Below are positions 20,896-55,310 of a stretch of DNA of 64,000 nt, piece after piece; within the stretch, counting starts at the first letter, position 1; every line of letters starts with the position of its first letter. Origin of the DNA: Bryum argenteum (Eukaryota; Streptophyta; Bryopsida; Bryales; Bryaceae); contig CM073323.1 in the NCBI GenBank assembly GCA_037043015.1, positions 26,874,758 to 26,938,757 of the forward strand, read 5' to 3'. The translations under genes were made by a program, and so were the position numbers. The notes under the pieces were generated by a model that had not been told where the DNA came from, made no database searches, and was given only the letters and a program-made list of their open reading frames with translations.

Positions 20896-23730
20896 ATGCC
20901 GGATAGTAGCAATTTCCCTATGATTTTGGGCCGACCTTGGTTAAGAGACATGAATGCAATCCATGATTGGGCAAGAAATCAAATCAGAATCCGAAGATAC
21001 GGGAAGACCATGATTATTCCCGTGGACAGCTGCATCACTAGAGAAAAAGTCAAACAAATTAGGAATCAAGCTGGTACAGCCTGGGGGCGAGGTCTTACGC
21101 AAGAGCAAGAAGCCTTGGTGTTCCACGCCGACCCAGATCTGATCCCACTAGCGGAGATTCACTTGGCCAGCGTGGTCTCAGAAGAAGATACCCTCGATAT
21201 TCCCCACAGGTTCACCACCGAAGTTTCCGAAACAGTCCTCATTGATAAAACCTCGGCAACCGAAGCTTTAAGTGAAAAAGTAGTAACCGGGTGGACAAAT
21301 GGTTCCACAGAACAGGTACAATTGGTCAACCTTGGCACCGAAAACAAACCAAAGCATGTCAAAATCAACGCCGACGCACCGCATGATATCAAACAGGCAA
21401 CCATAGCTCTCTTCAAAGAATACCAGGATATTTTTGCCTGGACGCACGAAGACTTGAAAGGGATACCAAGGACAATAGCCGAACACACTATCGATCTGGT
21501 ACCAAATGCTCACCCAGTACAACAACGCAGGTACCGCATGAATCCAAACTACGCAGCCAGAGTCAAAGCAGAGCTGGACAAACTGCTCGATGCCAAGTTC
21601 ATATCACCGGTAGACTCGGCACCATGGCTGTCCCCGATGGTCATCATTCCTAAAAAGAATGGCGCCTTGCGAATCTGTGTGGATTTTCGTAAACTCAATG
21701 CGGCAACCAAAAAGGATCACTATCCTTTACCTTACATGGAAGAAATCATTGACGAAGTAGCAGGACATGAGATGTACTCATTTCTAGATTGTTTTTCCGG
21801 ATATTATCAAGTCGCCATGGCAGAACAAGACAAGAGCAAAACCGCGTTTTCCACGGAGTGGGGTCCTTACCAATTCGAAAGAATGCCGTTTGGAGCAAAA
21901 AACACACCCATGACATTTCAACGTGTCATGGAGTTGATTTTTCGTCCCTACTTGAAGAAATTTTTCCGCATATACCTAGATGACGGCACAGTGTACGGGC
22001 GTATGCAAGACCATGTTAGCCAATTAAGACAAATCTTTCAAGCATGCAGGGAAAACGGGGTAAGCCTAAATGCCGACAAATGCATGTTTCTATTCTTCGC
22101 AGGAGTCATCTTAGGTTATATTGTTTGCAAATATGGCAAACTTCCCGACCCCTCCAAGATCCAAGATATCCTGGACATGACTCCATCTAAAGATCAAAAT
22201 GGCGTCCAAAGATTGCTTGGCATCTCACAGTTCAACCGAATGTACATTGAAAAGCTAGCACACCTGACGGCACCGATAGCTGCCTTAAACCGTGCCGGGT
22301 ATTCCTACCCCCGAGACTGGACCCCGGCAACCCAGACAGCGTTGGATAAAATAAAGCAAGCATATTCACAGGCGCCAATACTATTGGCACCTAATTGGGA
22401 CAAACCGTTCCACGTCCACACAGATGCCTCCAAGATCGCCGTGGGGGTTATGTTGGCACAAAATGTCAGCGGCAAACACGATCAACCGGTGGCCTACGCT
22501 AGCAGGTTGCTAAACCAAGCAAAACGAAATTATTCAACCACGGAGAGAGAAGCCTTAGCGATGGTCTACGCAGTCAAGAAATTCCGACATTACTTGTTGG
22601 GAAACAAGTTCAGATTCATGGTGGATCATCATAGTCTGTCTTACTTGGTGAACCAACCATTGATCACCGGAAGAGTCGCTCGGTGGATCATGATTCTCAT
22701 GGAATATGACTTCGAAGTGGTCTTTGTGCCAGGGAAACGCCACATCGTGGCAGATTACCTTTCCCGAGACACCAATGCTACCGAAGAAGGCATAGACGAC
22801 TCGTTTAATGAGCCATATATACAAGCTGCGTTAGTACAGACCACCATGGATACCGCGGAAACTCCAGCCGACTACAGACAGGACATCATGGCTTACTTGG
22901 ATCAAGGAATCATACCCAATGGACTAACAGGCAGCCAAAAAATCAACTTTGTGAGAACCACGCTACCATGCACCGTGGTTGACGGCAGATTATACCGAAA
23001 AGGCGCAGATTTGGAAGTTAGGCTCTGTGTACCCACCAGAGACCAACAACAGATCCTCGATAGCCTCCACGCAGGCCCCGCTAGCGGACATCAGGGACCA
23101 GATACCACAGTACAGAAAATACTGGCTGCTAAATATTGGTGGCCAACGTTACATAAGGATGTCCTCGCATACATTAAACAGTGTCACGTATGCCAAACAG
23201 CAACCACAAACTTTCAGCATCAAGGCAAAGTACCGCTCAAATCAATACCACCGTTGGGACCTTTTCAACGATGGGGGCTTGATTTTGTCGGACCAATTAA
23301 ACCAACCTCAAAGCAAGGATACAAGTATATTTTGGTAGCCACGGATTACACTACCAAATGGGTAGAGGCCAAACCACTGCGCAGCAATACTGCAATGGTA
23401 ACAGCCACTTTCCTCTATGAAAACATAATTACTCGCTTTGGATGCCCCTTGGAAATCATCTCCGATCAAGGTACCAATTTTGTCAACGCAGTCATCGAAG
23501 ACCTCATGGACAACCATATCATCAAACACAGGACAAGTACGGTCTATTATCCTCAAGGAAATGGACAGGCAGAATCCACCAACAAGACCATTTTAAACAT
23601 GCTACGCAAATTTGTATTGGCAAACCAAGGTGACTGGGATGACTGTCTACCCGCAGCACTGTGGGCCTACAGGGTGGCCACAAAAGCAGCCACCCAGTAC
23701 AGCCCCTTCGAATTAGTTTATGGAGTGTAG
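20896..23730 (+). CDS. Ty3 pol: protease end, reverse transcriptase, RNase H, integrase
   Basis: The ORF has 944 codons. It begins with the protease tail (MILGRPWL). Reverse transcriptase spans about residues 200-390, with [18 protein letters not shown], the [12 protein letters not shown] block and the catalytic YLDD at about 360. RNase H follows (HTDAS near 508, then [12 protein letters not shown]). The integrase zinc module is H...H...CHVCQ (about 730-770). The integrase core has LDFVGP (about 794), ISDQGTNF (about 854) and QGNGQAES (about 890), giving the D,D,E triad. It stops after FELVYGV; the normal chromodomain-side tail is out of frame downstream. Confidence 0.93.
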
Positions 23731-23867
23731 CCGCTGTTGCCGACAGAATACATCATACCAACCTTCCAATCCATACAACCACGAGACTATCAGCCTCACC
23801 GCGTCTTGGCAGCCCGTGTACAGGACCTACACAGGCTCGAGGAATTCCGTGGAGAGGCCAGGCTTAA

Positions 23868-24836
23868 ATGCTTAATATACTACGGAGACAAGCACTGAGC
23901 GCAAGGTACTTTCAGGGCACAAAACCTCCTCGCATATTCCAAAAAGGAGATCGGGTACTATGGTGTCCAAGAGACCCAAAAATTAGAAAATCCAAATTAG
24001 GGACAATTTGGCACGGGCCTTACAGGGTACAATTAGTATTGCCAAACAATACAGTTCTTTTGGTTAACAATGACAACTATGATAGCCAGGCCACCATTGT
24101 TAACGCAGCAAAATTAAAAAGTTATCATTCCAACACCCCGAACCAACAGCCAACGGTGAGTTTGGGTCAACTACAAAATTTACTGGCCACGGAAGCCAAA
24201 GGGCAAAAATCGCAGCAGGACATCGAGGACCCCGAGGAGGCCAAAGATACCGCAGATAACACAGTTACCCAAGGGGCAAACCTGCCTATTATTTATTTAA
24301 ATCACGTCCAAGTCGTCTTTTTGGACACCCAAAAAATCTCATGCGGTAATCATCACATAGACACCGAGGATATTGATGCCCAAGGAAGAGACCTTCTCGA
24401 GGGGCCTACGCTAGATCACAGGTACCTTCACAGGCCATCAACCGCCGCCGAAATGGCCTTTGGCCGATTGGCACTGACAGTCTTAACTCCCACTCAGCCG
24501 CCTTTCCCTCCCACTACCGCGGTAACCGAGGACAACAAAAGGCCGTTGGAGTCTCTCTGTCCTCATTTGCAGCCTCACACAACGCCTCTCTGTCTCACAG
24601 CTCGAGCTCCCTCGCCGCGCCGTTGCTTTTCATCATTCTCTTCCTTGCAGATTGCGCCACACATTCCACACACACGGTGTTTTTCCACGGTTTCCATGGC
24701 TTCTCGTAATTTGACTCCAGTAAAACCGGCCGCAGGCGCCCTTCTTCATGCCGAGGCACCTCCTCGATTGGCGAGCGAGGATCGATGGTGTGTGGACGCA
24801 AAAACACAGGGCTTCACCGATTTTGGGAGGACATGA
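23868..24836 (+). pseudogene. Ty3 integrase C-terminal part, separated by frame breaks
   Basis: The open frame contains FQKGDRVLWCPRD and KLGTIWHGPYRVQLVL, typical of the integrase C-terminal region. It is detached from pol by a TAG at 23728 and a further break near 23880. The downstream half is low-complexity Thr/Pro-rich and may be non-coding. Confidence 0.65.
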
Positions 24837-33841: not shown

Positions 33842-33845
33842 TGCA

Positions 33846-34242
33846 ACCGTTTCATGCTCATGGTGGTTTGGAGGTTTGCATTGGAATTTGTATGGTCATT
33901 GTGCAATTAGGGAGGAGAGTTGTTGTTGTCCTCTTATAAGTTCATGGGTTACCCGAAACCTCTCTCTCAACCCACTGACCCTAACCAACTATTTTTACTT
34001 ACACCAACGTCTACCCCAAACTATACCTTAACCCTCCTTGAAGCAGAGTCATACCCAAACTACCCTTTTGGGCAAAGTAAAATTGAAAGTGCAATAAATC
34101 ACCGCAAAAGGTCACCACATCAAGATGATAGGATTATGCATCCATCGTGCAAAATTGAGCAAACAATATTCATTCTAACATTTTTAGGTGTTGTGACCAA
34201 AACCTCAGAAACCCAAATCGGGTTTTTCATACAGTAAGTGAG
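33846..34242. repeat. Duplicated segment, copy A, piece 3
   Basis: Matches copy B 59478-59870 (CGGTTTCATGCTCATGGTGG / CCGTTTCATGCTCATGGTGG, then TTGGGCA.AGTAAAATTGAAAG and CCCAAATCGGGTT). It ends with CAGTAAGTGAG (34232-34242), the target duplication of element 2. Confidence 0.9.
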
Positions 34243-34310
34243 GGGGAAACCACCGGTGTGAGCGTTGAGCGGTGAGCGGTGAGCGGTAAAGTTTGAGCGG
34301 TAAGAAAAAA
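34243..34310 (+). repeat. Left terminal repeat of element 2
   Basis: Contains TGTGAGCGTTGAGCGG followed by two TGAGCGG units (one more than the right end), a degenerate third copy (TTTGAGCGGTAAG) and a run of A at about 34304-34324. Confidence 0.8.
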
Positions 34311-35219: not shown

Positions 35220-37562
35220 CTAGGCAGAAGGTGTAGAACCATTAAAGTGCTGATCACACTGATCAGCCTCAAAGTCTATAAACTTAAGCACACTATTGCT
35301 ATAACGTCGACGTGGAGTGTCAGAGAGAATGGGAGATGGAGCTTGAACAAACTCTTGAGCAAGACGCTCAGCGTACGATGGTAGTGTGAAGTTTGATGGA
35401 GGGCTCTTGTAGAGATGAGCGTTGCAGGTCAATTTCTCCTTCAGACCTGCGATCCTAAAAGTACAAAGAAAGTCAGTACTACATATTTGTAAGTGTGTAA
35501 TCTTAATTTGAGAAAGAGAACAGAAGATGGAATTACGCACCAATGAACTTCCGTGGCTTCTTTACAACCGGTTCATCAGAGTCATAATCCGCGGGAGGCG
35601 CTGATTCTCTACTTTCTTCATCACCGGGAGGACCATTCTTGTAATCCGCTAGTACACCATCGAAAATTTCTTCGTCAGGTTCCATGGCGATGAGGTGTCG
35701 GTTGGAGCGCGCGCAAGCAATCACGGATGCACCTAAAAAATCAGAAGCCCACGTTAGACATGAAAAATGTATAAACGAATTCTACTGTAGAGTTGACGCT
35801 AACATTACCTGTACTTGCGCTCCAGTCGAAGACTATACCCCCATCGTCCGTGAGACAATCGATGAAACATTGAATGAAGGAGGGGTCCTTCTCTCGTGAG
35901 CCTCGCCACGGCGTACCGTCCGGACGATATCGCAAGGTTTCTTTCTCTGCAAAGTTACAGAGGTGGTCTTCCTCATCAGGTACGATTGACACACCCGCAT
36001 ATGCGTGTGCGACTTGCCGAGTTTGGAACTTCGAAACAAACTCTTTGCGAACATACACTTTGATATGGAAGCAGTGAGTCTGCAAAACACAAGTATAGAT
36101 ACATTAATATAGATGCAAAGAAGGCAATTACCATGAGTTGCGAAATTGATAATTAGAGTCTGATACGTACCTCTTTCGGTTTAGGTACGGTAGATGCCAT
36201 AGGAAGGGGATTATATCCCCACCAGTCTCGAACAAGACGGAAACTATATGTATGGGACTCGGCATCGAGAGTACGCTCGATTCTATGACACTTTGGATGC
36301 ATCAGAAGAATCGCACCAACGTCTGTCAAGTGATACGCGGCAAACACGAATAGGCTCTCAAAGTACGTTTTGTCACGCCGGTTCCAGGATGGAATTTCTG
36401 TTGGAGACACACCTGGTACATGCAAGTTTTCGGGAGCATCTGCAAAAATGAGATCAATTCCTGGATGCTTGGGTTCATACTCCATCGCCAAACACGGGTA
36501 CCTACGATCTTTGCCAATCTGAGATACAAATCAGAAATTAGATAGTGGCATATAGATTTACAAGTAAGATTTATAAATAAGAGATTATAAATGACAAATG
36601 TAAGAAATACTACCTTTTTGATGTGCTCGACGATATCGAGGATTTGCGAATCCCATTTTGCAGTCTTCGACGACTGATGAACCAAATCTCCAATGTTGCC
36701 CTTCTCGAGATACATTGGCAGAGTGACTGTAATTTTAGACGACGAGCTGCTACCAATGTGATTGGGTTTCGGAAGAGGGCGTTTAGCAAATACTGGCTGG
36801 CTGAGGCGACGCGGGGACTGCTGAGAGTTGTGGTCAACGGTGAATGATTGAGGAGGGGACCCAGCATTTGTAAGTCCACCAGTAGAAAGTTGAGTCAGTC
36901 TTCCACTGCGTCGATTGGCATTGTTTGTAGCTCCCTCTAAAGCCTGAGTCAGATCAGCATCTTCTGGCCCTACAATGTCCTCTGGGGGAGGAACAATATC
37001 TTCCAAATCTTTGTCCACTTCAATAACAGGCTCTGCAACAACGTTGCGACGCTTCCGGTTTGCGCGAGACTTGGGCACTGCAACTGGTGAAGAAGGAGAA
37101 GAGATTGGATCGGATGCGACTGGTATAATGGATAGGTCGTCATCGTCGTTGTCGTCAATCTCCAACGGTGCGGAGTCAGTAAGGTTTGAAGCCAGGTTTC
37201 GAAGAAGATGCTTCTCCTCTTTGTGCACGTAGTTGTCGTCGCACTCTAGGAACCATCCACCGGTCGTCAATTGGGAGTTTGTAAACCGCTCTTGTTGGGC
37301 TGAGGAGAAAAAGCTGCGGGGATCATTCGTCACTGCCACGTCCTCGAACTCCATTGGAATGGAAAACGAAGGTAATGTTCCCTTGGCAATGAGTTCCAGT
37401 TTCAAATACCTACAACAAATTGAACAAATTAGATAGGAGAAATTGAATACGTTGATCCACTTTCAATGATATTTAATAAGAAATGAAATACATACCTGAA
37501 TAAAAGTCGTTTAATTGTAGCTTTGCCTCCAGTAATCTTGCGGAGATCCGAGCCTTTAATGA

Positions 37563-38452
37563 TGTTAATGGCATATTAGTATTTGTTAGTGAATCCGACA
37601 TATACCGGTCAACCCGACCTGTACTAGTCGACCCGACCTACCAGACGACCCGACGTTTACCGGTCGACCCGACCTTTACCGGTCGACCCGACCTTTACCG
37701 GTCGACCCGACCTTTACGGTCGACCCGACCTTTACCGGTCGACCCGACCTTTACCGGTCGACCCGACCTTTACCGGTCGACCCAACCTTTACCGGTCGAC
37801 CCGACCTTTACCGGTCGGCCCGACCTACCAGTCGACCCGACCTTTACCGGTCGACCCGACCTACCAGTCGACCCGACCTTTACCGGTCGATCCGACCTAC
37901 CAGTCGACCCGACCTACTAGACGACCCGACCTTTACCGGTCGACCCGACCTTTACCGGTCGGCCCGACCTACCAGTCGACCCAACCTTTACCGGTCGACC
38001 CGACCTTTACCGGTCGGCCCGACCTACCAGTCGACCCGACCTTTACCGGTCGACCCGACCTACCAGTCGACCCGACCTACCAGTCGACCCGACCTACCAG
38101 TCGACCCGACCTACCAGTCGACCCGACCTTTATCGGTCGACCCGACCTTCCTGTAATGGTTTCAACTAGACTCTGTAGCTAGATCTAGATTCAGATCTAG
38201 ATCCAGATTCAGATTCAGATCTAGATCCAGATCCAGATCCCGATCTAGATCCAGATTCAGACCTAGATCCAAATCTAGATCTAGATTCAAATCTAGATCT
38301 AGATCATGGATCTCCCCTTTGTACCTTCTTCTTATAAGTAAAGGTCTTCTTGTGTGATGAAACACATTGAGGTTAGGCATGTTTTACAATGTAGTGGCTC
38401 TTCTGTCTTGTTTGCCCTACCGGTAGGTAGAGCATGTATTTCCTCATTAACA
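37563..38452 (+). repeat. 5' LTR of the small LTR element, with internal minisatellites
   Basis: It contains about 25 units built from ACCTTTACCGGTCGACCCG and ACCTACCAGTCGACCCG (37600-38155), then AGATCCAGATTCAG-type hexamer repeats (38175-38305). It is 234 bases longer than the 3' LTR because of unit number. Confidence 0.88.
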
Positions 38453-39688
38453 TTTGGCGACCATGTAGTGTTTCGTACCATGATCTCTTGTGAGAGATGT
38501 GTTGTGCCCATGGAGTTGTTTGTTTTCTCTTGTTCTAGTGTTTGATAGAACCGACATAAAGCTGTCTGGTCGCAGCAGTCATTCCCTGGTCGGTAGAGTA
38601 AACCCCTCTTTCATCTTGTTAGTAGCAGTTTCTGTGATCCAACGTAACTGTGACTGGTAGGAGAAGTAACTTAGACACGTTAGATGAGTTTCTAGAATAA
38701 ACCCCGATGTTTTGAAGAGTTTTATAGAATGGTGCCTCTTATTGAGAGTTTTTGTTGCTCTTCAATCTAGTAAGTACCTTTGTCAATGAGATTTCGATTT
38801 AGAGCAATACTCTTGAAGAACTTAGTGAAAGATCTTTGTTTTGATGAACTTAGATGAGGTGAGCCATAGAAGCAAGATACCATCAAGCTAGGAGAAGAAG
38901 CACGATCTGAAGAACTAAGAGAAGAGATGTTTGACTCTGATTTGTTTTCTTTTAGTCATGTTATGTCTGTATGGGTCCAACAGCAGTCAACCAGGGAGTC
39001 TTCCCGACAGCAGTCGACCAGGGAGGTGGCCCGACCAGAAGTCGACCAAGGAGGCGACCCAACTAAAAGTCGACTAAGGAGCCGACCCGACCAGTCAGTG
39101 ACTAGGGAGGCCATCTGACTAGAAGTCGACCAGAGGCCGAGCTGACCAGAAGCCGACCCGACCACAAGTTGACTAGGAAGCCGACCCAACGAGAAGTCGA
39201 CCTTGTATCCGACCCGATCAGTAGTCGACCTGGACCTGACCATATCCGTTGTATGTAAGTTTGCAGATTTCTTGAGAAGTTAAGGAGTTGGAGGAGAAAC
39301 TACCGGATGGAGATTTTTGAAAGGCTAGCCGACCAGATGAAGACTAGTGTCGGTTGGAGATCAATCGTTTGGACGGCCCTACAATAACTACCTACTGAAC
39401 CCGGTACTTCTAGTGGTGAAGTGACTACCATCAAGAGGAGCATAGAACACCCATTGGACTCATGAAGAACCGAGAAGGAGTAATCGAGCCAGATTTAGAG
39501 GAGTGAATACCAGATGACGAGGACGTTTTAAATGGCAGCAAGACTTTTGAAGGAAGGTTTCCAAGACAAACATCTAACCTATAGTGTAGACACTACCAGC
39601 CACCTTTAACTATATGTAGAATGTGTAATATGTAGTCTTCGTTCGATATAGCGTTTACGAAGGCGTAACGCGTTCGGAGGGAGGGTAA

Positions 39689-40344
39689 TGTTAATGGCAT
39701 ATTAGTATTTGTTAGTGAATCCGACATATACCGGTCAACCCGACCTACCGGTCGACCCGACCTTTACCGGTCGACCCGACCTTTACCGGTCGACCCGACC
39801 TTTACCGGTCGACCCGACCTTTACCGGTCGACCCAACCTTTACCGGTTGACCCGACCTTTACCGGTCGGCCCGACCTACCAGTCGACCCAACCTTTACCG
39901 GTCGACCCGACCTTTACCGGTCGGCCCGACCTACCAGTCGACCCGACCTTTACCGGTCGACCCGACCTACCAGTCGACCCGACCTTTATCGGTCGACCCG
40001 ACCTACCAGTCGACCCGACCTTTATCGGTCGACCCGACCTTCCTGTACTGGTCTCAACTAGACTCTGTAGCTAGATCCAGATTCAGATCTAGATCCAGAT
40101 TCAGATCTAGATCCAGATTCAGATCTAGATTCAGATCCAGATCCCGATCTAGATCCAGATTCAGACCTAGATCCAAATCTAAATCTAGATCTAGATCATG
40201 GATCTCCCCTTTGTACCTTCTTCTTATAAGTAAAGGTCTTCTTGTGTGATGAAACACATTGAGGTTAGGCATGTTTTACAATGTAGTGGCTCTTCTGTCT
40301 TGTTTGCCCTACCGGTAGGTAGAGCATGTATTTCCTCATTAACA
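39689..40344 (+). repeat. 3' LTR of the small LTR element
   Basis: Same ends and repeat types as 37563-38452, with fewer ACCGGTCGACCCG units. Confidence 0.88.
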
Positions 40345-42491
40345 AATGAACTTCGGACTTGCAGTTGGAGCAAGATAGTTTCCGAATGCCTTCTCCCATA
40401 AGAGCAATCTCCACTTCTCGATATATGCAGATGGCTTTAGGACAACACTAGACCACTCAATATTGAGGTTCTCGTTGTCTACCAGATTCTGCAATTCACT
40501 TTCAAGTGATTGCTCAAGCTGAGAATACAGGAAACATGTTAGTATTAAAAGTATCATATAATCTCAAATACTGTAATCACAGAACGAATATGCAAGTTAC
40601 CTGTGTCCAAAGAGAAGCACGATGTAGAAATGAAACCAAAGCTTTGTCTTTCATCGGGCGTTCCTCTAGGAATCGAAATGATCGCCGAACTTCGTTTGGT
40701 GAGTTCCACCACTGCAGCCACTTTGCCTTGAAATCAAAGTGAACATTGCTAGTGGCTACCATGTGTAAGCGTTCAAGCGTCATGTCGGGTTTCATGTTTT
40801 GGCTGTAATGAGAATTAATCTGCATATCGCAATCACAGTTTTGATTAGTGCAGTTGAACGTACAAACAACAAAAGTGTCACAGATCGCGGAACCCAGGCA
40901 GCAATACCTCTCTTGCAAAGACTTTTCCGAGTTTGATATTGGCCACCGCGACCATTTTGTCGAAATTCTTGCCACGTATTACTTTGATTTCAGCCTTGAT
41001 GGCGTTATCCATGGCACTCCATACTCCCGGTCCAGTTTGTTTATCCTTTGGAACCGTGGCGTAGTACGTAGCTTCAGCATCGTCGGATTTTTTGGCTAAC
41101 CTCCTCTATATAACCACCAGAACACAAATGAGAAGTTGATTTAAATAAACTATAGCAAAAGGAGTCGATAACAATCATAGCGAACGTACCGCGTATAGAA
41201 ATTTTACAAAAACGTCTATTGTCACAGGATACCACGTCTCCTTTTTGCTTTGGCGTTCTTACAGATCCTGTAATCTTCGGGGGAGATGAGGTCCTTGAAA
41301 TCTTCGAGTTTCAGTTTTCCAAATTTCCTCATGCGTTGCAGTTTCGCACACAAAATGTCTTCGACATGATCATGTTCAGTGGACCTACAACATAGAACGA
41401 AAGATGAGAAAACTTGTACATGTCATAATCATAAAAGAATTTGATATTAATGAATGACGCATTTTCTTACCAGTTTACGTCGTTCATAGCATCAAGGAGA
41501 AGATTGCTTTCTCCACGAGCATCGAGTACGATGCAGTCAACGGAAATGTACCACAAGGGATCATTCTTGTGGTATCTCTCGATATGACGCATCCACGCTG
41601 TAACACGGTGGTTACCTTCGTAGACAAAGAAATATTTGTCACAAAGGTTATGAAGATCTGGATCGGACCGCAGCGTACTCTCGAACTCATCATTCGCGGC
41701 TTTCCAAAGCGGGTTCGTCCAAAGTACCTCTTGAGGGTCAACGTCTTTTTCTCGGCCTTTTCTATCAAAGGGAGACACGTACATTACACGATCGCCTTCG
41801 CGGTAGCCTTTGTTGAACTCATTCTCCAATTTCCGGACGTCTTGTTCAGAGATCGGCCGAACCTTCGGATAACAGACGAGGCGACAAAGTGGAATTAGCA
41901 TACGAGACTTCTTAACAGGTTTGTAACGTAACCTGTTGATGATTGCTATGGAATCACTCTTGTGGAGCATTCGCATCTCGTTAGCACTCCAGTCGGGGTC
42001 CTTGTTTTGAAGATGTGTGGGCATGTGGATCATTCCAACGTTGACACCTTCAGGCAAAGTAGATTCTTCATCATCCGAGAGGGATTGGTGTCCATCATGG
42101 TCTTGCGTTGGTAGGTGAATATCTGCAGCTTCTAGAGGATCGTCAGTTGAAACTGCATTGCATTCGCCTTCCACAAGTTCGCGATCAGATTCCGAAGGAC
42201 TCTCTTGCAGAACTCCACTTCTGAAGTAATCAACATTTCTCACACTATCAAGTATGAGTTCATCTCCGACGGAATGTACAGTTTGTGGAGGATTAAGATG
42301 AGGCGGAATGACTTCTTCATCTTGAATGAGATGGTCTTGAGCTATGCTCATCTGGAAATCCAAGAAATCAAATACAACACAACACAATAAGCATAAGATA
42401 GTATAAAATGAATAATAATATATAAAAAGTAGTACATAACCTTATTGTGACTTAGTATGTGACAAACATATCATATAATGTTCCGATAAAA

Positions 42492-45400
42492 CTAAGAAGA
42501 TTGCATCTTTGCGGCAAGTCGCGGAGAACGTCTAGGTGCAATTCTAGCAAATTCCTTTTCCTGGAGACGACGAGCTTTTGCCTCAATCTTTTTTAATCGC
42601 ATGTTATCAGCTCGTGTAACCCGATCAACGTCAACATGTGAATTGTGACGGACAGGGGAGGCAGGAGGTGGCGTTTCCGGAACCGAAGACAATGCTATAA
42701 CTAATCGACGAGACTCCACTATAGCCAACACATGGTCTCTTAGAGCGGAGAGGTCGCTATCTGCATCGGATTCCACTTCAGGATGAACTCCATGTCGCTT
42801 CAGAGGATCCTGCAAAAACACCACAATCCCAACAATCAACTACCAAACATCGAAATCAAAACTTTAGGACAAACAAAACTAATTCAACCCACTACTGATT
42901 CACAAAGTAGATCGTATCAATTACAAATTCAATATCCATCGTCCATTTCAAAATCAACCATCAAATAAAATATTAAAAATAATAACGCAATTATTAAGCA
43001 CGTTTCCAGCCTTAACAAGGAGCTTAATCAGCGAGTAAAGGCCATATTTTAGCGTCATTGCCAAGCCCACGAGCACCCTCGGAATGAGAGGTTGGCCCCC
43101 CAGAAGCCTTCGAACTCATTGATAACCCAACAGACCAATCAGCAAGTTATTAACGAAAATAAAGACAATTCAAATTCAAAATCAAGCATCAAAAACAGAA
43201 GACTCAATCCATCACGAAGTCACGAAGGCTGGGAACCGAGCTCAGCTCGCAGCTTCACAGCCCGGCTCGAGAGGCAGCGTTGGGATTCAATCAACCACCA
43301 CGAGCACGAGCTCATGGGTGCAAGAGAGCTTAGCCCCCCCCCTTAAAGCGAGCCCGAGAGCTCCTCGTTCACGAAACAGACCATCCAGCAGGTAGTTTGA
43401 GACAAAAAACAAGAATTCGATCCGACAAGTGTCAGACTTGTGTCGACGCAAGTCTGACACTTGTCCAGTCAAATCCAACTTTCAACACCACCATTCACAA
43501 TCAACCATCAAAAACAGGAGACTCATTCCATCACGAAGTCACGAAGGCAGGGAACCGAGCTCAGCTCGCAGCTTCACAGCCCGGCTTGAGAGGCAGCGTT
43601 GGGATTCAATCAACCACCACGAGCACGAGCTATGGGTACAAGAGAGCCAAGCCACCCCCCACCCCGCTCACGGCGAGCCCCCAGCTCCTCGTTCATGCAA
43701 CAGACCATCCAGTAAGTAGAATGAGACAAAAAACAAGAATTCGATCGGACAAGTGAGTGACTTGCGTCGACGCAAGTCTGACACTTGTCCAATCAAATCC
43801 AATTTTCAAGACCACAATTCACAATCCACCATCAAAAACAGGAGTTTCAATTGATCACGAAGTCACGAAGGCTGGGAACCGAGCTCAGCTGGCAGCTTCA
43901 CAGCCCGGCTCAAGAGGCTAGGCAGCGTTGGGATTCAATCAACTACCACGAGCACGAGCTCAGGGGTGCAAGAGAGCCTAGCCCCCCCCTCACAGCCAGC
44001 CCGCGAGCTCCTCGTTCACGAAACAGACCATCCAGCAAGTAGTTTGACACAAAAAACAAGAATTTGATCCGACAAGTGTCAGACTTGCGACGACGCAAGT
44101 CTGACACTTGTCCGATCAAATCCAACTTTCAACACCACCATTCACAATCAACCATCAAAAACAGGAGACTCATTCCATCACGAAGTCACGAAGGCTGGGA
44201 ACCGAGCTCAGCTGGCAGCTTCACAGCCCGGCTCGAGAGGCAGCGTTGGGATTCAATCAACCACCACGAGCACGAGCTCATGGGTCCAAGAGAGCTTAGC
44301 CCCCCCCTTAAAGCGAGCCCGCGAGCTCCTCGTTCACAAAACAGACCATCCAGCAGGTAGTTTGACACAAAAAACAAGAATTCGATCGGACAAGTGTCAG
44401 ACTTGCGTCGACGCAAGTCTGACACTTTTCCAGTCAAATCCAATTTTCAAGACCACCATTCACAATCAACCATCAAAAATAGGAGACACAATCCATCAAG
44501 AAGTCACGAAGGCTGGAACCGAGCTCAGCTGGCAGCTTCACAGCTCGGTTGCGAGGCAGCGTTGGGATTCAATCATCCACCACGAGCACGAGCTCATGGG
44601 TGCAACAGAGCCTAGCCCCCCCCCTCGCAGCGAGCCCCGACCTCCTCGTTCACGAAACAGACCATCCAGCAAGTAGTTTGACACAAAAAACAAGAATTTG
44701 ATCGGACAAGTGTCTGACTTGCGTCGACGCAAGTCTGACACTTGTCCGATCAAATCCAACTTCCAACACCTCCATTCACAATCAATCATCAAAAACAGGA
44801 GACTCATTCCATCACGAAATCACGAAGGCTGGGAACCGAGCTCAGCTGGCAGCTTCACAGCCCGGCTTGAGAGGCAGCGTTGGGATTCAATCAACCACCA
44901 CAAGCACGAGCTCATGGGTGCAAGAGAGCCTAGCCCCCCCCCCTCACAGCGAGCCCGAGAGCTCCTCCTTCACGAAACAGACCATCCAGCAAGTAATTTG
45001 ACACAAAAAACGACAATTCGATCGGACAAGTGTCAGACTTGCGTCGACGCAAGTCTGACACTTGTCCGATCAAATCCAATTTTCAACACCACCATTCACA
45101 ATCAACCATCAAAAACAGGAGACTCATTCCATCACGAAGTCACGAAAGCTGATACCGAGCTCAGTTGGCAGCTTCAGTGTGCGGCTGAGAGGCAGCGTTG
45201 GGATTCAATCAACCACTAGGAGCACGAGCTGTGGGTGCAAGAGAGCCAAGCCCCCCCGCTCACGGCGAGCCCCCAGCTCCTCGTTCATGCAACAGACCAT
45301 CCAGCAAGTAGAATGAGACAATAAACTAGAATTCGATCGGACAAGTGTCAGACTTGCCTCGACGCAAGTCTGACACTTGTCCGATCAAATCCAATTTTCA

Positions 45401-48400
45401 AGACCACCATTCACAATCAACCATCAAAAATAGGAGACACAATCCATCACGAAGTCACGAAGGCTGGGAACCGAGCTCAGCTGGCAGCTTCACAGCCCGG
45501 CTCAAGAGGCTAGGCAGCGTTGGGATTCAATCAACCACCACGAGCACGAGCTTATGAGTGCACGAGAGCCTACTCCCCCCCCCCTCACAGCGAGCCTGCG
45601 GGCTCCTCGTTCACGAAACAGACCATCCAGCAAGTAGAATGAGACAAAAAATAAGAATTCGATCGGACAAGTGTCAGACTTGTGTCGACGCAAGTCTGAC
45701 ACTTGTCCGATCAAATCCAACTTTCAACACCACCATTCACAATCAACCATCAAAAACAGGAGACTCATTCCATCACGAAGTCACGAAGGCTGATACCGAG
45801 CTCAGTTGGCGCCTTGGTGTGCGGGCCGAGAAGCGTTGGGATTCAATCAACCACTAGGAGCACGAGCTGTGGGTGCAAGAGAGCCAAGCCCCCCCCTCCC
45901 CGCTCACGGCGAGCCCCCAGCTCCTCGTTCATGCAACAGACCATCCAGCAAGTAGAATGAGACAATAAACAAGAATTCGATCGGACAAGTGTCAGACTTG
46001 CCTCGACGCAAGTCTGACACTTGTCCGATCAAATCCAATTTTCAAGACCACCATTCACAATCAACCATCAAAAATAGGAGACACAATCCATCACGAAGTC
46101 ACGAAGGCTGGGAACCGAGCTCAGCTGGCAGCTTCACAGCTCGGTTGAGAGGCAGCGTTGGGATTCAATCATCCACCACGAGCACGAGCTCATGGGTGCA
46201 AGAGAGCTTAGCCCCCCCTCCTTACAGCGAGCCCGCGAGCTCCTCGTTCACGAAACAGACCATCCAGCAAGTAGAATGAGACAATAAACTAGAATTCGAT
46301 CGGACAAGTGTCAGACTTGCGTCGACGCAAGTCTGACACTTGTCCGATCAAATCCAATTTTCAAGACCACCATTCACAATCAACCATCAAAAATTAATGA
46401 CACAATCCATCACGAAGTCACGAAGGCTGGAACCGAGCTCAGCTGGCAGCTTCACAGCTCGGCTGAGAGACAGCGTTGGGATTCAATCATCCACCACGAG
46501 CACGAGCTCATGGGTGCAAGAGAGCCTAGCCCCCCCCCCTTACAGCGAGCCCGCGAGCTCCTCGTTCACGAAACAGACCATCCAGCAAGCAGTTTGACAC
46601 AAAATACAAAAATTTGATCAGACAAGTGTCAGACTTGCGTCGACACAAGTCTGACACTTGTCCGATCAAATCCAATTTTCAAGACCACCATTCACAATCA
46701 ACCATCAAAAATAGGAGACACAATCCATCACGAAGTGACAACGGCTGATACCGAGCTCCGCTGGCAGCTTCACAGCTCGGCTGCGAGGCAGCGTTGGGAC
46801 TTGGGATTCAATCAACCACCACGAGCACGAGCTCATGGGTGCAAGAGAGCCTAGCTCCCCCCCTTTACAGCGAGCCCGCGAGCTCCTCGTTCACGAAACA
46901 GACCATCCAGCAAGTAGAATGAGACAAAAAACAAGAATAATGACAATTCAAATTCAAAATCAAGCATCAAAATTAGGAGACTCAATCCATCACGAAGTCA
47001 CGAAGGCTGGAACCGAGCTCAGCTGGCAGCTTCATAGCTCGGCTGAGAGGCAGCGTTGGGATTCAATCAACCACCACTAGCACGAGCTATGGGTGCAAGA
47101 GAGCCTAGCCCACCCCCCCCCCCTCATAGCGAGCCCCGACCTCCTCGTTCACGAAACAGACCCTCCAACAGGTAGTTTGACACAAAAAACTAGAATTTGA
47201 TCCGACAAGTGTCAGACTTGCGTCGACGCAAGTCTGACACTTGTCCGATCAAATCCAACTTTCAAGACCACCATTCACAATCAACCATCAAAAACAGGAG
47301 ACTCATTTCATCACGAAGTCACGAAGGCTGGGAACCGAGCTCAGCTGGCAGCTTCACAGCCCGGCTTGAGCGGCAGCGTTGGGATTCAATCAACCACCAC
47401 GAGCACGAGCTATGGGTGCAAGAGAGCTTAGCCCCCCCCCCTTACAGCGACCCCGCGAGCTCCTCGTTCACGAAACAGACCATCTAGCAAGTAGAATGAG
47501 ACATAAAACAAGAATTCGATCGGACAAGTGTCAGACTTGCGTCGACGCAAGTCTGACACTTGTCCGATCAAATCCAATTTTCAAGACCACCATTCACTAT
47601 CAACCATCAAAAATAGGAGACACAATCCATCACGAAGTCACGAAGGCTAGGAACCGAGCTCAGCTGGCAGCTTCACAGCTCGGCTGAGAGGCAGCGTTGG
47701 GATTCAATCATCCACCACGAGCACGAGCTCATGGGTGCAAGAGAGCCTAGCCCCCCCTCCTTACAGCGAGCCCGCGAGCTCCTCGTTCACGAAACAGACC
47801 ATCCAGCAAGTAGAATGACACAAAAAACGAGAATTTGATCGGACAAGTGTCAGACTTGCGTCGACGCAAGTCTGACACTTGTCCGATCAAATCCAATTTT
47901 CAAGACCACCATTCACAATCAACCATCAAAATCAGGAGTTTCAATTGATCACGAAGCCACGAAGGCAGGGAACCGAGCTCAGCTGGCAGCTTCACAGCTC
48001 GGCTGAGAGGCAGCGTCGGGATTCAATCAACCACCACGAGTACGAGCTCATGGGTGCAAGAGAGCTTAGCCTCCCCCTTACAGCGAGCCCGCGAGCTCCT
48101 CGTTCACGAGACAGACCATCCAGCAAGTAGAATGAGACAAAAAACAAGAATAATGACAATTTAAATTCAAAATCAAGCATCAAAAACAGGAGACTCAATC
48201 CATCACGAAGTCACGAAGGGTGCGAACCGAGCTCAGCTGGCAGCTTCACAGCCCGGCTTGAGAGGCAGCGTTGGGATTCAATCAACCACCACGAGCACGA
48301 GCTCATGGGTGCAAGAGAGCCTAGCCCCCTCCTCACGGCGAGCCCGAGGTCCTCGTTCACGAAACAGAGAAACGGCTGCAGAGGCTAGTTCGGGATTCTA

Positions 48401-49189: not shown

Positions 49190-49535
49190 CTAACGGAGCG
49201 GGCTTCGGCTAACCGGCGCCGGGCTTGCACGTCGCTTCCGCGAGCGGGCTTGATCGTTCGGCGAGCGGGCTTAGATCGATCGGCAAGCGGGCTTGGGTGT
49301 CAGATGTCGGCGAGCGGGCTTGGGTACTGTATCGGCGAGCGGGCTTGGGTACTGTATCGGCGAGCGGGCTTGGGTACTGCTTCCGGCGAGCGGGCTTGGG
49401 TACTGTTTCCTGCGAGCGGGCTTGGGTACTGTTTCCATCGAGCGGGCTTGGGTACTGTTACGGGTGAGCGGGCTTGGGAACTGTATCCTCCGTGCGGGCT
49501 TGGGAACTCGAATCAATGGGTGGGCTTTGGTTCGG
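49190..49535. repeat. Minisatellite, 25-31 bp unit
   Basis: About twelve units of GCGAGCGGGCTTGGGTACTG-type sequence with variable spacers (TATCG, CTTCCG, TTTCCATC). It lies between the minus-strand exons 49862-50029 and 48912. Confidence 0.88.
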
Positions 49536-49861
49536 GTTCGGGTTTTATTACGTAAAAACGTTTATACATTAACTTTAATATCATTGTCATTAGTCACATA
49601 TTCTGAAAGTATGAACATCGTAGGCAAAATTTTGAAATTGAATCCCGCAAGAAGGAGTTATGGACCAGAAACAATGAGACACGGTTTTCACTACAAAATC
49701 TCAATAAAAGATATTCTCAATCTTGCCTCCATATATGTCATGCAATTATATCATGTCAAATGTCCAAACTACATCGAATTGAAGAATGAACTCTCGTTGA
49801 TTGTATACTTAACCAACCCTAGATCCTCCCAGTAAACCAAGAAATAGGGTTTCTCATGTAC

Positions 49862-50503
49862 CTCCTCTAATTCTTCAGCACTTGTCTCAAATCCATCCTT
49901 TTCATCATCTTGTGTATCCAGAGGATAAGAGGCTTCTGCTCTTCCGCCCGTATCCGTGACTCTTTTCTCCTCAAACATTGTTGCTTCATCCTCTGATCCC
50001 TCATCTTCCTCTTCCGATCCTCTGCGACCCTAAAGACAACACATGATAATCTTGATTCATATATGTATCCAGAAATAGTTTGACCTTTACAAATATTCAA
50101 ATAGTTCTAAAATATTCTGCTTCATTACCTCATGTGTAGACTCCACACCTCCATTGTCATCCCCTTCCACGAAATCAAACTCCCTAGACGTCCTAAAATG
50201 CCTTCTACTCCCTTCTTCCTCCTCTGCTTCAGCTTCGTCAATCCCGACACTCTCGGGAATACTGTCGAGGTTGAGCGATCGCATCTTAATAGTCCGCCTA
50301 AACGGCGGTAGCACATCGTCGTCGATTAGAATATCGTACCCGTCCGGCTCCCGATCATCGCCACTACAGCTTCTCCCATCGCGCTTCCGCAAAGCACTAC
50401 GCCTCAGTGCTTTAGAATTTGTGAACTTCGTACCTCCTCTCCGCTTCTTCTTTTTCTGACCTATGTCCTTTCCTCTCTCACTACCGCTAGCGGTCTCGTC
50501 CAT
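49862..50503 (-). CDS. Acidic/basic nuclear-type exons of element 2
   Basis: Exon 1 (50129-50503) starts MDETASGSERGKDIGQKKKK, a Lys/Arg-rich nuclear-signal-like stretch, and continues with Asp/Glu-rich sequence. GTAATG follows. Exon 2 (49862-50029), after GTCTTTAG, reads GRRGSEEEDEGSEDEATMFE and ends SAEELEE before GTACATG. Phases agree (0/0). The downstream partner is uncertain; the 48912 exon is a candidate, making one gene of about 350 residues that crosses the minisatellite. No family recognised. It is transcribed away from the transposase gene. Confidence 0.5.
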
Positions 50504-51033
50504 GCTGCTTGTGTGAAGATAACTTATGAAACGTTGTACCGAACGAGTACTGAAATTCTCACTGCAAATGAAGAGGTTGGACTTCGGTTTTCAACTCCAA
50601 TATATGAGATCCCCGATGCGGCTAAGAAACCCTAATCACCGAACGCGTATTTCCTAACATCCCGCTATGACCGTGTCTGACAATCTATAATAAGTTACAT
50701 TTTAAACCTATCTAAAATCCAACGCATCTAATTATCTGACAAAGACTGCCGCCGTCACTTTACCTTCTACACCTACTTATATTATCGTGGGATCTAATAT
50801 TTTTAATCCAAAGTACTTAATGCAATTATGTCAGTCCAAACATTTTTAGTATTCAAAGTAACGTGCTTCCTAATTTTCATGCTCACGATTAAGAGTTTCA
50901 CATATCTGTACGATTTTTTAATATAAAATTAAGTCTAGTAGGTATTCAATACGTACACAAGAACCGTACACCAATTCTTTATATTTGAACATTCGAAACG
51001 CACCTCAGTCTCTCTTTCTCTGCTTACTTGTTG
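50504..51033. promoter_or_regulatory. Divergent promoter region of element 2
   Basis: These 530 bases separate the start codons of the minus-strand nuclear-type gene and the plus-strand transposase. The stretch is AT-rich with no ORF, and likely drives both. No TATA box could be assigned with confidence. Confidence 0.5.
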
Positions 51034-54000
51034 ATGTTGTCTTCCACGCCTGCGTCTATCATGGCATCCTCCGCTCCCCTACCTCCCGCTCCAAACGTCA
51101 TTGCCATTAGGTCTGAAGACTTAAGTCCCCCTATCTGCATTCCTCCGGGGGTGGATGGAGTGGCAGAAGTCACTCCGTCTTGGCTAGCAATTCGTTTCGG
51201 GTTTGATGAGTCCTCTCTGTGGTTAGAGAAACATGTCTTGGATCCAAACTGTAATCTTGTTCAATACTCCGTCCTTGTCGAACCAGTCGACCTAGAGAGT
51301 AATTGCAAAATGTATAGGCTACAGCCCGGACAGTATCGACTCTATGGCCTAACAGAGTCCGTCATGAACGCCTCCACCGTGCTCCTCACTCCTCGTAGCT
51401 CTTCTACCATATCCACAGTTGTTCCAGTTATTGCTCCTGTCAAGGTCGAACCCGGACTCGAAGTCCCAATCGATATTTCTGATTCATCCGACGATGAACG
51501 AAAAGTGTCCATCCAGTCCCGTCATTTATTATCGGATCTGCCTCCCCCATTGTCTGGTTCTGAATACAGTCTTAGAACCACCCCCGTTTCTCTTCCCACG
51601 TCCAAAGTCGTAAAATCCAAAACCATTCTTTCCTCGCTCCGTAGACTAGGTAGTATGTCTCGCAACAAAACTATACTCAAAAAAATAGATTTCCATTCCA
51701 TTCGTACTCACAACGTTTCTTTCCTGCCCCCCACTTTCAACGGTGATGTCCTCTACATTCTCCCTCCCGTTCTACCAACTACTACGGTCAGGGTAGCCAA
51801 ATCTATGGAAGGGATGGACAAAAGATACGACGGTCATGTGTGGACCAGGACAATGACTACTAACATCAGTAACAACCTCGGTTTGTCATTCCGTTACTCT
51901 AACTGTGCAGGGCATCTTCAATGCCACAATGACAAGTGCGGCTTCTTGCTACGACCTGACCGCAGAGCCCAGGTGAATGAGGTGGAGTTCGAGGGCTTTA
52001 CCAAGGACCCCTTCTTTGTCGGCCACGCGCCTCCTCCTTCTTCAACTCTGGTCTGTAAGATCTGCAAAGAACCTCCCGTTTGTGTTGCACTGTGCCCTTC
52101 TAAAATATTTTACGTCTTCGGAGAGGAGAGTCAAGAGCGTGCTTGTGTGCATATCGGTACCCACGATTATCCTGTCAAGATCGGAGACTACAGATGTGCA
52201 CGTAAAATAATTGATGAGTTAATAGAGGAGCACGTAGAACGTAACCCACAAGCTACCACGTCCAAAATAGTCATGGAGGCCAGCAAGGACTTACTCGGAA
52301 ACTTACTTCTCCGTGAAGAAGGTGACCCTGTAACCTCGAAGCTCACCCTCCAGGAGCTAGAACCTATCTTCGATCAGTGTAAAGAGCTCAACTCTCCCAA
52401 CATTAGAAATCGTATTACCACTTTTAAGCACTTGCGCAGATACGGTGTTCTTGATGGGATCACCAAGCTTCGAGGCCTCAGCAACTGGGCTTACATCCAA
52501 CGTAATCAGTTCCCGCGCCAAGGAGATGAAAGTGACAAAGTGTTCATTTTCAAGATGTCCGAGGTCGGCCCCGGAAGCGGTGTTGACCTTGTTCGTCGTA
52601 TGCAACCCGGAGGCGACCTGTCCCATGCTTGGATGATGTTCGACCACGTCAAGCGTGTCAAGAACTGGACCACCATGGCATGCCACGTTTATGACTCAAA
52701 AATCTGCCGCATTCTAACTATTGCATGCTGTGATTTCCAGTCTGAAGACGGGGATGCTCAAATCGTCTTCTGGAAGAACCTAAACCACGTCATGGGCAGG
52801 AACGGAGTGGAAGCGCCGCAGTTTCAAGGGTTCATGGCCGACAGTGCGCAAGCCAACTGGAACGCTGTACGGATCATTTCCGGCTCCGGAGACCCTAAAG
52901 AGCCTATGGAAGGCCGCGAGCGGACTTGCTACTTCCATTGGACGCAATCCCTAGAGAAACACACCAAACAATACATCGTGCACGAGCTACAGGATCAACA
53001 TCGTCATCTTTGTAAGCAATACAAAGATGCACGCACCATGGCTGAGGCGGAGACAAGATACTGGGCGATCCGAGCGTGGTGGGCATCGGCGCAGGCCACC
53101 TCCGAAGTTGGATTAGGTCACCTCGAACACTGGCTTGCATTCTGGCATTTCCGATATCGGCAGTGGGGTGGCTTCATGGAATTGGTGAGTCCACAGTCAC
53201 TGTAGCAATTATGTACAAGTGAATTGATGTCTCGTAAATCTTTAAAATATATTTACTTTTTAGTATAGAATATTATGCTTTTTTAATCTTTTTCAGTAAC
53301 AGTTTTTTCATAAAAAATTTAAAATTGTTCTATTTTAAGATCAGACTTGCTGTGACGCAAGTCTAAACCGCTCTGGATATCGTGATCAACTTTTTTTGTT
53401 ATTAAGTCATAAGTCTTTGCACCTTGCAGGAAAATAAATATTCAGCACAGGAGTTGGCGGAGATGCCTTCATGTAACCTCGCAGAATCTATCCATAACAA
53501 ATGGTTGCAAGCGTCCGGCAACAAAGGTGGAGACTTGTACGTTGCAGTTGTTGATGATTATGTTCGTGCTTTCCTTCAAGTAGTAGGTTACCACGACTTC
53601 AACGGAGGTGGCAAGGGTGGTAGTGGACCAACATCCGAAGAATTGTTACTTCGTGTTGCCCATAAAGCTCAACGAACCGGTGATCCATCATGCCTCACAA
53701 AGGCAGTTGCTGACTATCCAGGAGCTGAAAATATTTGTACCCGCGACGCCCACCTTGAGGGGGCCGAGGTGTTCGGATCCAAGAAACGTAAGGCTGATGT
53801 TCCAATTGGAGCTGATGATGAAACGCATAGACCCGACACCGTGAGCTATTCACGTCCCCGAATTGGGAGAAGGGTTACCCGAGCTTGTGCTGAAAATCTG
53901 AGTACTATCCATGAAGAGGATGAAGTTGAGGAGCTACCGACAATACCATCCACTTTTGCTGGACCTAGTATTGAACGTGTGACCGCTGTTCAGGAGACAA

Positions 54001-54863
54001 AAGTAGACGAGAGGTTGTGGCACATTGCTCGTTTGAGGGAGAATTCCGCCAAGGCTTGTTGGGGTATCATGCGTAAGAGTAAAAAAAGATGTGACTCACG
54101 AATTATTCAGAAGGGGAAGGCGACCGCAGCTCCAACTTACACCGGAGTATCGCAACGCCCTCAAGAGGGGCCAAGAAAAATTGATCAGTTCTTTTTTTGC
54201 GCGGATGATATTGACAGGTGTGTGAAGGGTCATCGTCGCAAGTGGATTGAGCCATTCTCTCTAAGCCAGGACAGACCCCCTATTCCTTCAATATGGCCTG
54301 TAAAGATAGGGACTAACCTCACACGTGATGAAATGGAGGCGTTAGAGAATGCGGGCTTTCGATTACCACAAAAAGAACAGCTTCCTACGAATCGCACTTT
54401 CAATAATGGTGCCCCACCAAGAGACTTGTCGCATATTCCAGTCCCGGAGAAGCCGGACGTGTACCCAAGGTCAAGAAGATCAAAGAACATGAAACGCATT
54501 CCAGCTATGACTTCAAAGCACATGAAGAATATTGAGTCTGCCACCTCAATGCAGGCCAAAATTCTAAGGGTGACCATGATCCCGCAGCCTGGTTTTGGGT
54601 GTATCGTTGACTTGGAGTCGGATGCAGTTTATAGACTTTCAATTAGTAAATTTCCGGATTGCTCATGCCCAGTGTTCAAGAAAACCATTTCTACGTTAGG
54701 AAGAAGAGATCCATATCGACCGTGCAAGCACCTGTACTTCATCACGGTATTGGTTTGCAAATTTGATCCGGATGCAGACCTATTCATCCACGCGGCCACT
54801 CTTAGTTTCAACGAGGTGAAGAAGATTCTGGAGGGAGGAATCCTAGATCATGCTACAGATTAG
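51034..54863 (+). CDS. Mutator-like transposase with SWIM zinc finger (two exons)
   Basis: Exons 51034-53184 and 53430-54863 join in phase (GAATTG/GTGAGT ... CTTGCAG/GAAAAT) for 1,194 residues. The N-terminal ~250 residues are low-complexity. A Cys/His region follows (YSNCAGHLQCHNDKCGF ... CKICKEPPV ... RACVHIGTHDYPVK), like the zinc/FLYWCH-type N-terminus of MULE enzymes. The transposase core has FDHVKRVKNW, GFMADSAQANWNAV (second Asp) and CYFHWTQSLEKH (C..H block). Exon 2 opens with NKYSAQELAEMPSCNLAESI, like the asparagine-rich post-core block of MULEs. Near the C-terminus SKFPDCSCPVF...RPCKHLYF is a SWIM finger (CxC...CxH). The frame is open throughout, so this gene may be functional. It is the likely mobiliser of element 2. 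Confidence 0.85.
53341..53365. repeat. Palindrome related to the array, inside the transposase intron
   Basis: AGACTTGC and GCAAGTCT arms flank TGTGAC. The array palindromes have the same arms around GTCGAC, with the same overall spacing. It occurs once, in the 245-bp intron 53185-53429. Confidence 0.7.
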
Positions 54864-55310
54864 AATACCTTATATCTCCTCATCTACGTACGCTATATGT
54901 TAGTCTTATGATTGGGTGCTCCTCACTGTATGTAATATTTCTTCACAACTTATTTAAAATTATTATACCAGAGCCTACATGTACAACAAACCTTGCCAAT
55001 TTGTCTATTCACTTAGAAATATTACCTTGCAAAGCTCTTCACATTTAAAAATTTGAGATTTACTGTCGAGTTTTGTAGCTCAAGTCTCACAAAATTCAGG
55101 GAATTTAAGCCTTATTTCCACGGGTTTGGGTCACGAAATCCACGGTTATAAGTCTAGAATATTCGAATATTCTTGAGAATATTCGAAAGATATTCCCAAA
55201 ATCTTTTTTAAAAACTATTTTTAGAAATATTTTTACTAAAAATACAAGTTAAGCCTTTAAAATTTTAAATCTTACCGCTCACCGCTCAACGCTCACACGG
55301 TAGCAATGTC
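54864..55310. other. Right end of element 2
   Basis: Holds the transposase 3' region and the right inverted terminal repeat (55274-55310), which reads CCGCTCACCGCTCAACGCTC on plus. Interrupted AT-rich palindromic words (AATATTCGAATATTC) occur near 55157. Confidence 0.7.

Follow-up and report, generated by a model that had tools for sequence, protein, structure and literature searches.

Introduction

The closest described counterpart of the element analysed here is Sola1-1_Ec32 of Ectocarpus, a 21.5-kb Sola1 element that encodes a ParB-like/methylase protein of 1104 aa on the strand opposite the transposase, and the paper describing it, which also cites green and red algal cases, suggests that the protein binds and epigenetically modifies its own element (PMC12477816). 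The present analysis concerns a stretch of 64,000 nucleotides from the moss Bryum argenteum, hereafter the window (assembly GCA_037043015.1, contig CM073323.1, positions 26,874,758 to 26,938,757 of the forward strand), which contains a giant DNA transposon with a ten-exon gene for a protein of this kind, here called the ParB-methylase gene. The gene family is under purifying selection, and a palindromic site that the protein may recognise lies upstream of it in every copy of the element compared.

The moss element resembles Sola1-1_Ec32 in having one protein of ~1,100-1,190 aa, ParB-like and N4C/N6A methylase-type, opposite the transposase of a giant ~21-kb transposon, and, compared by published description, is unlike it in its MULE-type transposase, 10-bp target site duplication (TSD), land-plant host, degenerate motif IV and palindrome array. 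Because the Ectocarpus paper reports the same kind of protein, the ParB-methylase accessory class was already known. A preliminary description of this DNA had called the combination with a MULE transposase apparently undescribed, which stands in so far as the open-access literature yielded no report of a palindrome array or of a ParB-methylase protein carried by a MULE or by a land plant, and falls for transposons at large given the algal cases (PMC12477816). As far as that literature shows, the MULE carrier in a moss, the degenerate motif IV, the evidence of selection and the palindrome array are new.

A second parallel is provided by the Arabidopsis VANDAL MULEs, whose VANC proteins bind short motifs in non-coding tandem repeats and induce methylation loss (PMC5735166, PMC10398659). 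As those papers describe them, they share with the moss element membership of the MULE superfamily, extra genes and a conserved motif within fast-diverging non-coding tandem repeats; the moss motif is unlike theirs in being a long palindrome, for which binding is proposed from its arrangement. Neither a ParB nor a methylase domain is known to us in VANC. A ParB/sulfiredoxin (Srx) fold together with palindromic sites clustered beside the gene is likewise found in bacterial ParB-parS and KorB-operator systems, whereas the moss protein has a methylase-like C-terminus, resides in a eukaryotic transposon and has a DNA-binding module that is only presumed; inspection of the element by eye showed no ParA-like gene, no search aimed at ParA having been made. 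Prokaryotic ParB-DNA methylase fusions are known, e.g., Bacillus cereus Bce_0392 (PMC5512222), and judging from the available description the moss protein is unlike this type in its degenerate catalytic motif, ~600-residue gap, nine introns and MULE context. Finally, DIRS and other retrotransposons and viral Mariner elements also encode DNA-methylase-type proteins (PMC5890265, PMC3627910); these DNA methyltransferases are Dam-like, C5 or other, and the available parts of those papers describe no ParB domain or palindrome array.

The ParB-methylase gene and its selection

The gene model in the window comprises the following exons, with any further basis in brackets.

41471 to 42351, minus strand: exon 1, ParB/Srx-like domain with the YEGNHR box (fold)
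41190 to 41384, minus strand: exon 2, frameshifted in the window copy
40908 to 41105, minus strand: exon 3
40601 to 40819, minus strand: exon 4
37496 to 40518, minus strand: exon 5, split by an insertion flanked by long terminal repeats (LTRs) at 37563-40344
36614 to 37409, minus strand: exon 6, acidic/Ser-Pro linker region
36171 to 36518, minus strand: exon 7, methylase-like motif-IV position, DAPE (motif placed by eye)
35809 to 36079, minus strand: exon 8, start of methylase-like motif I, DWSASTG (Pfam N6_N4_Mtase, PHROGs)
35537 to 35732, minus strand: exon 9, remainder of motif I and acidic residue, NRHLIAMEPD (PHROGs)
35221 to 35454, minus strand: exon 10, C-terminus

The limits of the ten-exon minus-strand gene as first described (35220..42351) proved right to a base, with the start codon at 42351, the last coding base of the model at 35221 and GT/AG at all nine introns of the window row. 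The YEGNHRVTAW box is present in the N-terminal exon, and methylase-like blocks follow ~600 residues downstream in the order IV-like then I-like, as judged by eye. Pieces of 10 kb from 20 fetched copies were compared with the window, and 18 of these copies (all but L013 and L014) were aligned with it; the ten exons could be traced through this alignment. The earlier statement that all ten exons join in phase is true of L016, L019 and L028, which have GT/AG throughout, zero stops and 1170-1191 codons. It fails for the window, where exon 2 has 195 nt versus 196 nt in 16 of the 18 other aligned copies, the spliced row contains 29 stops, and exon 5 carries the LTR-flanked insertion with 5-bp duplications AATGA; the window copy of the gene is dead. 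Eighteen of the 20 fetched copies align across the empty insertion site, and L013 and L014 are rearranged there. The LTRs of the insertion (~37562-38452 and ~39688-40344) are about 91% alike and rich in ACCGGTCGACCCGACC-type repeats, and with no polyprotein seen by eye the insertion is TRIM-like. Among the other aligned copies, L010 has an open frame with one altered acceptor and the remaining 14 have stops or length changes.

Exons 1-9 are each better conserved than the following intron (9/9; exons 0.847-0.946, introns 0.700-0.879). In the six pairs among the four open copies, at synonymous divergence (Ks) of 0.32-0.47, the ratio of nonsynonymous to synonymous divergence (Ka/Ks) of the whole protein is 0.13-0.20; its parts have values of 0.04-0.12 (ParB block), 0.04-0.11 (methylase block) and 0.23-0.54 (N-terminal 150 columns). 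Codon-pattern matches for YVYEGNHR number 376 in the genome (190 + 186; 259 Mb, 25 contigs), against 0 for the reversed control. The gene and its exon set are real and under purifying selection, and chance is excluded. MULEs often capture host genes, which counts in favour of the gene being a passenger with no function for the element; this reading is rejected because of the Ka/Ks values, is also at odds with the 376 genomic matches, and is very improbable.

The only full-length-type protein relatives found come from the moss Ceratodon purpureus: three hypothetical proteins with 50-54% identity over 71% of the query. A related Ceratodon open reading frame (ORF), KC19_VG030900 (P0018), lies on the V chromosome judging by its name. 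In Bryum, many of the copies listed, a number of them with stops, lie on the 44-Mb contig C1, for which a sex chromosome would fit.

A palindrome conserved upstream of the gene

Upstream of the gene lie the following non-coding features, neither of which has a strand.

43174 to 48151: non-coding array of ~318-bp tandem repeats (repeat analysis)
43434 to 47873: 14 palindromic sites with the 22-bp core AGACTTGCGTCGACGCAAGTCT and 0-1 mismatch, about one per repeat unit

The perfect 20-bp palindrome, GACTTGCGTCGACGCAAGTC, emerged from 9-mer counts upstream of the gene in the 20 copies and the window, which gave one shared word despite differing repeat units; a tandem array was reported for 14 of the 20 copies and none for six. 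The same core is found in 17 of the 20, and in two of these 17 it is accompanied by a variant whose centre differs. The palindrome of L010 is a variant with changes in both arms, while L011 and L019 have no perfect palindrome; all three carry sites with 1-2 mismatches, so that a site is present upstream of the gene in 20/20 copies. When two-letter sequences are excluded, every perfect palindrome of at least 18 bp in these copies is located upstream of the gene; the gene side has none. As a control, 200 palindromes with shuffled half-sites gave zero matches in the window. Genome-wide, 383 exact sites were counted versus 0 for the reversed control, and 758 sites with up to two mismatches versus 1. 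An unrelated 18-bp palindrome is also present in the window at about 55164.

The palindrome is linked to the gene in the genome. Fifty of the 383 exact sites were listed, forming 20 clusters, all on C1, and 11 of the 20 are situated 1.7-4.5 kb upstream of a ParB copy, where random placement gives a mean of 1.0 and a maximum of 6. Six of the other nine clusters were read: four contain diverged ParB-methylase genes (52-88% identity in aligned pieces), one of them together with a transposase, and one (L058) contains a transposase and no ParB gene in the stretch read.

In a dyad analysis of 71 sites from 24 sources, copy-averaged pairing extends to ±30 bp (0.36-0.92, with 15 of 20 positions at 0.5 or more). 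Of the five positions that follow, four drop to 0.22-0.27 and the fifth has 0.46. Some positions use both A/T and C/G pairs. The palindrome is better conserved than the surrounding repeat: among sites picked with no more than three mismatches, the core is closer to the array consensus than the remainder of the unit is in 13/13 arrays (deviation of 0.000 vs 0.273 in L016).

Perfect dyads in the window sites reach up to 60 bp, and a dyad of 60 bp gives a hairpin on folding (-34.3 kcal/mol, z -14.2). This folding, and the frequent occurrence of the palindrome within tandem arrays of differing units, would suit a structural role as a hairpin or cruciform for array expansion, a replication or recombination site or a hairpin RNA, with no dedicated protein involved. 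A purely structural role needs no single sequence and is therefore disfavoured, since the same 20-bp sequence is kept even though the repeat units differ and the adjacent ParB genes share only 52-88% identity in the aligned pieces; we regard it as quite improbable.

The ParB-like N-terminus

The AlphaFold2 model of the ParB-like domain has a mean predicted local distance difference test score (pLDDT) of 75, with most of residues 131-290 above 90, and shows the alpha+beta fold of ParB/Srx; the best Foldseek and VIA fold-comparison rows are ParB, Noc, KorB, PadC and Srx. The G-x-x-R box (G246 N247 H248 R249) is kept in at least 90% of a 55-row alignment. A ParB/sulfiredoxin fold of the N-terminus, as first described, is thus supported by the predicted structure and its comparison with known folds. 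Among the 55 members no match to the Pfam ParB family was listed at E up to 10, and the bacterial genomes and viral contigs scanned yielded no confirmed relative of the domain. The ParB alignment, used as a profile against the PDB, retrieved a single match (E 2), and Pfam gave a TAZ1_RBM match on exon 1 (E 0.08-0.09), both judged to be chance.

The methylase-like C-terminus

The Pfam N6_N4_Mtase family (cut-off 26.7 bits) matches the exons 7-9 piece of the window at E 0.0053 and 3/3 Ceratodon proteins at E 0.0024-0.034, all below the cut-off; 2 of 17 members matched, many members being fragments, with a best E of 0.00049, and the Pfam and NCBIfam scores displayed for these matches fall below the curated cut-offs. 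DNA methyltransferase families of PHROGs matched in 5/5 members (best E 8e-6) and the CcrM model in 2/5 (best E 0.019). The matches fall on the motif-I region near the C-terminus, and the order IV then I is that of beta-class enzymes. In a PDB profile search the methylase alignment retrieved an N4C methylase and DpnA at E 0.25-0.59; a dynein light chain ranked ahead of them (E 0.004, another region) and was judged to be chance. The AlphaFold2 model of the methylase half of the Ceratodon protein P0001, built from only 3 sequences, has a mean pLDDT of 28. Together the family matches support a relationship of the C-terminus to N6/N4 DNA methylases at the S-adenosylmethionine (SAM) motif.

Ten of 17 alignment rows cover the motif-IV position (GIDLIFADAPENL, placed by eye) in frame; they read DAPE in four (Bryum, Ceratodon and the relatives P0066 and P0067), DVPE in two and DAPS, DAPD, DTPS or DNAS in one each, i.e., D[ATV]P[ESD] in nine and DNAS in the tenth. 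Two further Ceratodon proteins, making three from that moss in all, also have DAPE there. The catalytic pattern [DNS]PP[YFW] occurs in 0/10 covering rows. Motif I is DWSASTG or DWSPSTG in the better relatives, not DPFAGSG, with its glycines partly replaced.

The methyltransferase identity given in the preliminary description survives as a relationship at the SAM motif, by family matches below the Pfam cut-off, and does not extend to the catalytic motif IV; judged from these motifs, classical N6A/N4C catalysis by the domain is unlikely. An active methylase fused to the ParB domain would mark the element DNA with N6-methyladenine (6mA) or N4-methylcytosine (4mC). In favour of such an enzyme are the similarity of motif I and its surroundings to N6/N4 methylases and the strong purifying selection on the domain. 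The centre of the palindrome, GTCGAC, would suit a methylase site, and for the algal relatives the production of 4mC or 6mA is predicted in the published account (PMC12477816). Self-marking by 6mA or 4mC, as first proposed, is doubtful because none of the ten rows has [DNS]PP[YFW]; the altered motif I and the sub-threshold Pfam and NCBIfam scores point the same way, and we consider an active enzyme unlikely.

The transposon, its transposase and a third gene

The limits of the element were defined by its terminal inverted repeats (TIRs), its TSDs and the ends of alignments between copies.

34243 to 55311, no strand: whole DNA transposon, 21,069 bp, ends agreeing across copies
34243 to 34283, plus strand: left TIR (GGGGAAACCACCGGTGTGAGCG...), by inverted match and an end position common to copies
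55271 to 55311, minus strand: right TIR, paired with the left TIR, end common to copies
50989 to 54863, plus strand: MULE-like transposase gene, two large exons with a SWIM-like C-terminus, divergent from the ParB-methylase gene
50090 to 50590, minus strand: third gene, main exon (KKKRRGGTKFTNSKA...), near the transposase start, conserved in 4/5 other copies fetched there
49772 to 50029, minus strand: third gene, second exon, an ORF that recurs in L049, L051 and L052
42480 to 42811, minus strand: small conserved ORF or exon upstream of the ParB gene, recurring in L010, L018 and L020 (all three copies translated)

The inverted match joins 34252-34283 and 55271-55301 (~32 bp, 93.75% identity) and recurs in copies, and a perfect 10-bp TSD, AGTAAGTGAG, flanks the window element at 34233-34242 and 55312-55321. 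For copies whose fetched stretch reaches the ends, alignments stop on the left at 34241-34243 in most and on the right at 55295-55315, with 55311-55312 in 6/11. Flanks were examined for the window and 11 other elements (sampled pair1 was omitted, its fetched stretch stopping short of the left end), and both ends were located in 11 of the 12, pair4 being without the right motif. Among these 11, eight have perfect 10-bp TSDs, one matches at 9/10, one has a TSD of 9 bp and one has none. A 395-bp direct repeat, 88.9% identical, lies just outside the left end (33844-34238) and 4 kb past the right end (59478-59872). CpG observed/expected ratios of 0.81-1.02 in four element parts versus 0.52-0.86 in four other parts of the window are uninformative.

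The second exon of the transposase matches only the Pfam SWIM family, at E 0.39, and the joined protein matches no Pfam family; the patterns D..D..CxxH and CxC..CxH are seen by eye. Two PDB matches to the transposase (E 0.053 and 1.7) were judged to be chance. Because of TSD length, within the 8-11 bp of MULEs, the presence of TIRs and the motifs seen by eye, the element is best explained as a MULE-superfamily DNA transposon with three genes and hundreds of copies. The protein of ~1,190 aa that it encodes in addition to the transposase consists of the ParB/Srx-fold N-terminus, a middle part that is also conserved and the C-terminal domain resembling beta-class DNA methylases. That the ParB-methylase gene shares one TIR- and TSD-bounded element with a MULE-like transposase agrees with the preliminary description. 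Furthermore, when 150 scored ParB copies were paired with 150 scored transposases, each taken from more than 1,100 candidates, at least 52 of the 150 ParB copies had a transposase within 20 kb, at least 49 of these divergent and upstream, versus a mean of 1.3 and a maximum of 5 under random placement.

The third gene has Ka/Ks of 0.04-0.24 over 75 codons and was not seen in L048, one of the five other copies fetched there. The ORF at 42480-42811 is possibly its last exon; its exons may thus flank the palindrome array, which could therefore be intronic. A 26-bp tandem repeat (GAGCGGGCTTGGGTACTG...) lies upstream of the transposase at 49281-49543, and a similar 27-bp repeat occurs in copy L013.

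These two genes supply a further alternative, in which the palindromes are cis sites, bound by the MULE transposase or the third-gene product, that serve transposition or its control. The role of the ParB-methylase protein would then be a separate one, such as that of a nickase or NTPase in transposition. Prokaryotic ParB-domain proteins can be nicking nucleases or NTPases, according to the available account (PMC5512222). One extra window site, with three mismatches, lies inside the transposase intron, the third gene is under selection, and L058 pairs the palindrome with a transposase and no ParB gene. On the other side, the element ends are without the palindrome as judged by eye, and in the 20 copies the sites adjoin the ParB gene even though the transposase shares the element. 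We consider binding by one of these other products fairly unlikely.

Other features of the window

Outside the element, the ORF list includes, by eye, a Ty3-type LTR retrotransposon polyprotein at 20019-24836. A protein kinase domain is fused to C1_2 domains at 1216-3078 (Pfam 4e-22 and 1e-18), with a partial copy downstream at 3021-3671 (by eye).

Discussion

The VANC-like and ParB-like arrangement suggests that the palindrome is read by a protein encoded in the element, which thereby shields or regulates the copies. The proposed reader is a dimeric DNA-binding protein, most likely the ParB-methylase protein, that would recognise the palindromes in its own copies and, once bound, could control their chromatin or transcription through anti-silencing or autoregulation; the methylase-like domain would then read DNA or bind SAM rather than methylate. 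By analogy with these systems, we put the probability that the ParB-methylase protein recognises the palindromes and controls the element copies at roughly 50%. Both the binding and the direction of its effect are what we infer from the observed selection, predicted fold and linkage.

Several points weigh against this proposal. The L055 cluster, with five exact sites and one of the six further clusters read, has no element gene in the ~2.7 kb examined on each side. The core contrast is weakest in L013, at 0.058 vs 0.070, and the choice of array sites by mismatch number itself limits core deviation; gene conversion inside the palindromes could also keep their symmetry. The ParB-like model has no Foldseek match at E <= 0.001 and its fold-comparison Z, just above 8, is modest; a helix-turn-helix-like DNA-reading part of the ParB-methylase protein is hypothetical. 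The transposase or the third-gene product could be the binder, and linkage cannot separate the ParB protein from the transposase in this respect because both share one element.

ParB-superfamily proteins often act on palindromic sites. A more specific version of binding by the ParB-methylase protein, which we consider fairly unlikely, is a ParB-parS-like system in which a ParB-fold protein with a methylase-derived DNA-reading domain would load and spread on the palindromic arrays and either block silencing or pair or segregate copies.

For the self-binding idea raised for the accessory proteins of algal transposons, the moss element offers a concrete protein and a concrete palindromic target, and it brings MULEs and a moss into the range of this class of accessory protein. 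Should the methylase domain lack activity, the likely function of the protein moves from 6mA/4mC self-marking to self-recognition, in parallel to anti-silencing by VANC.

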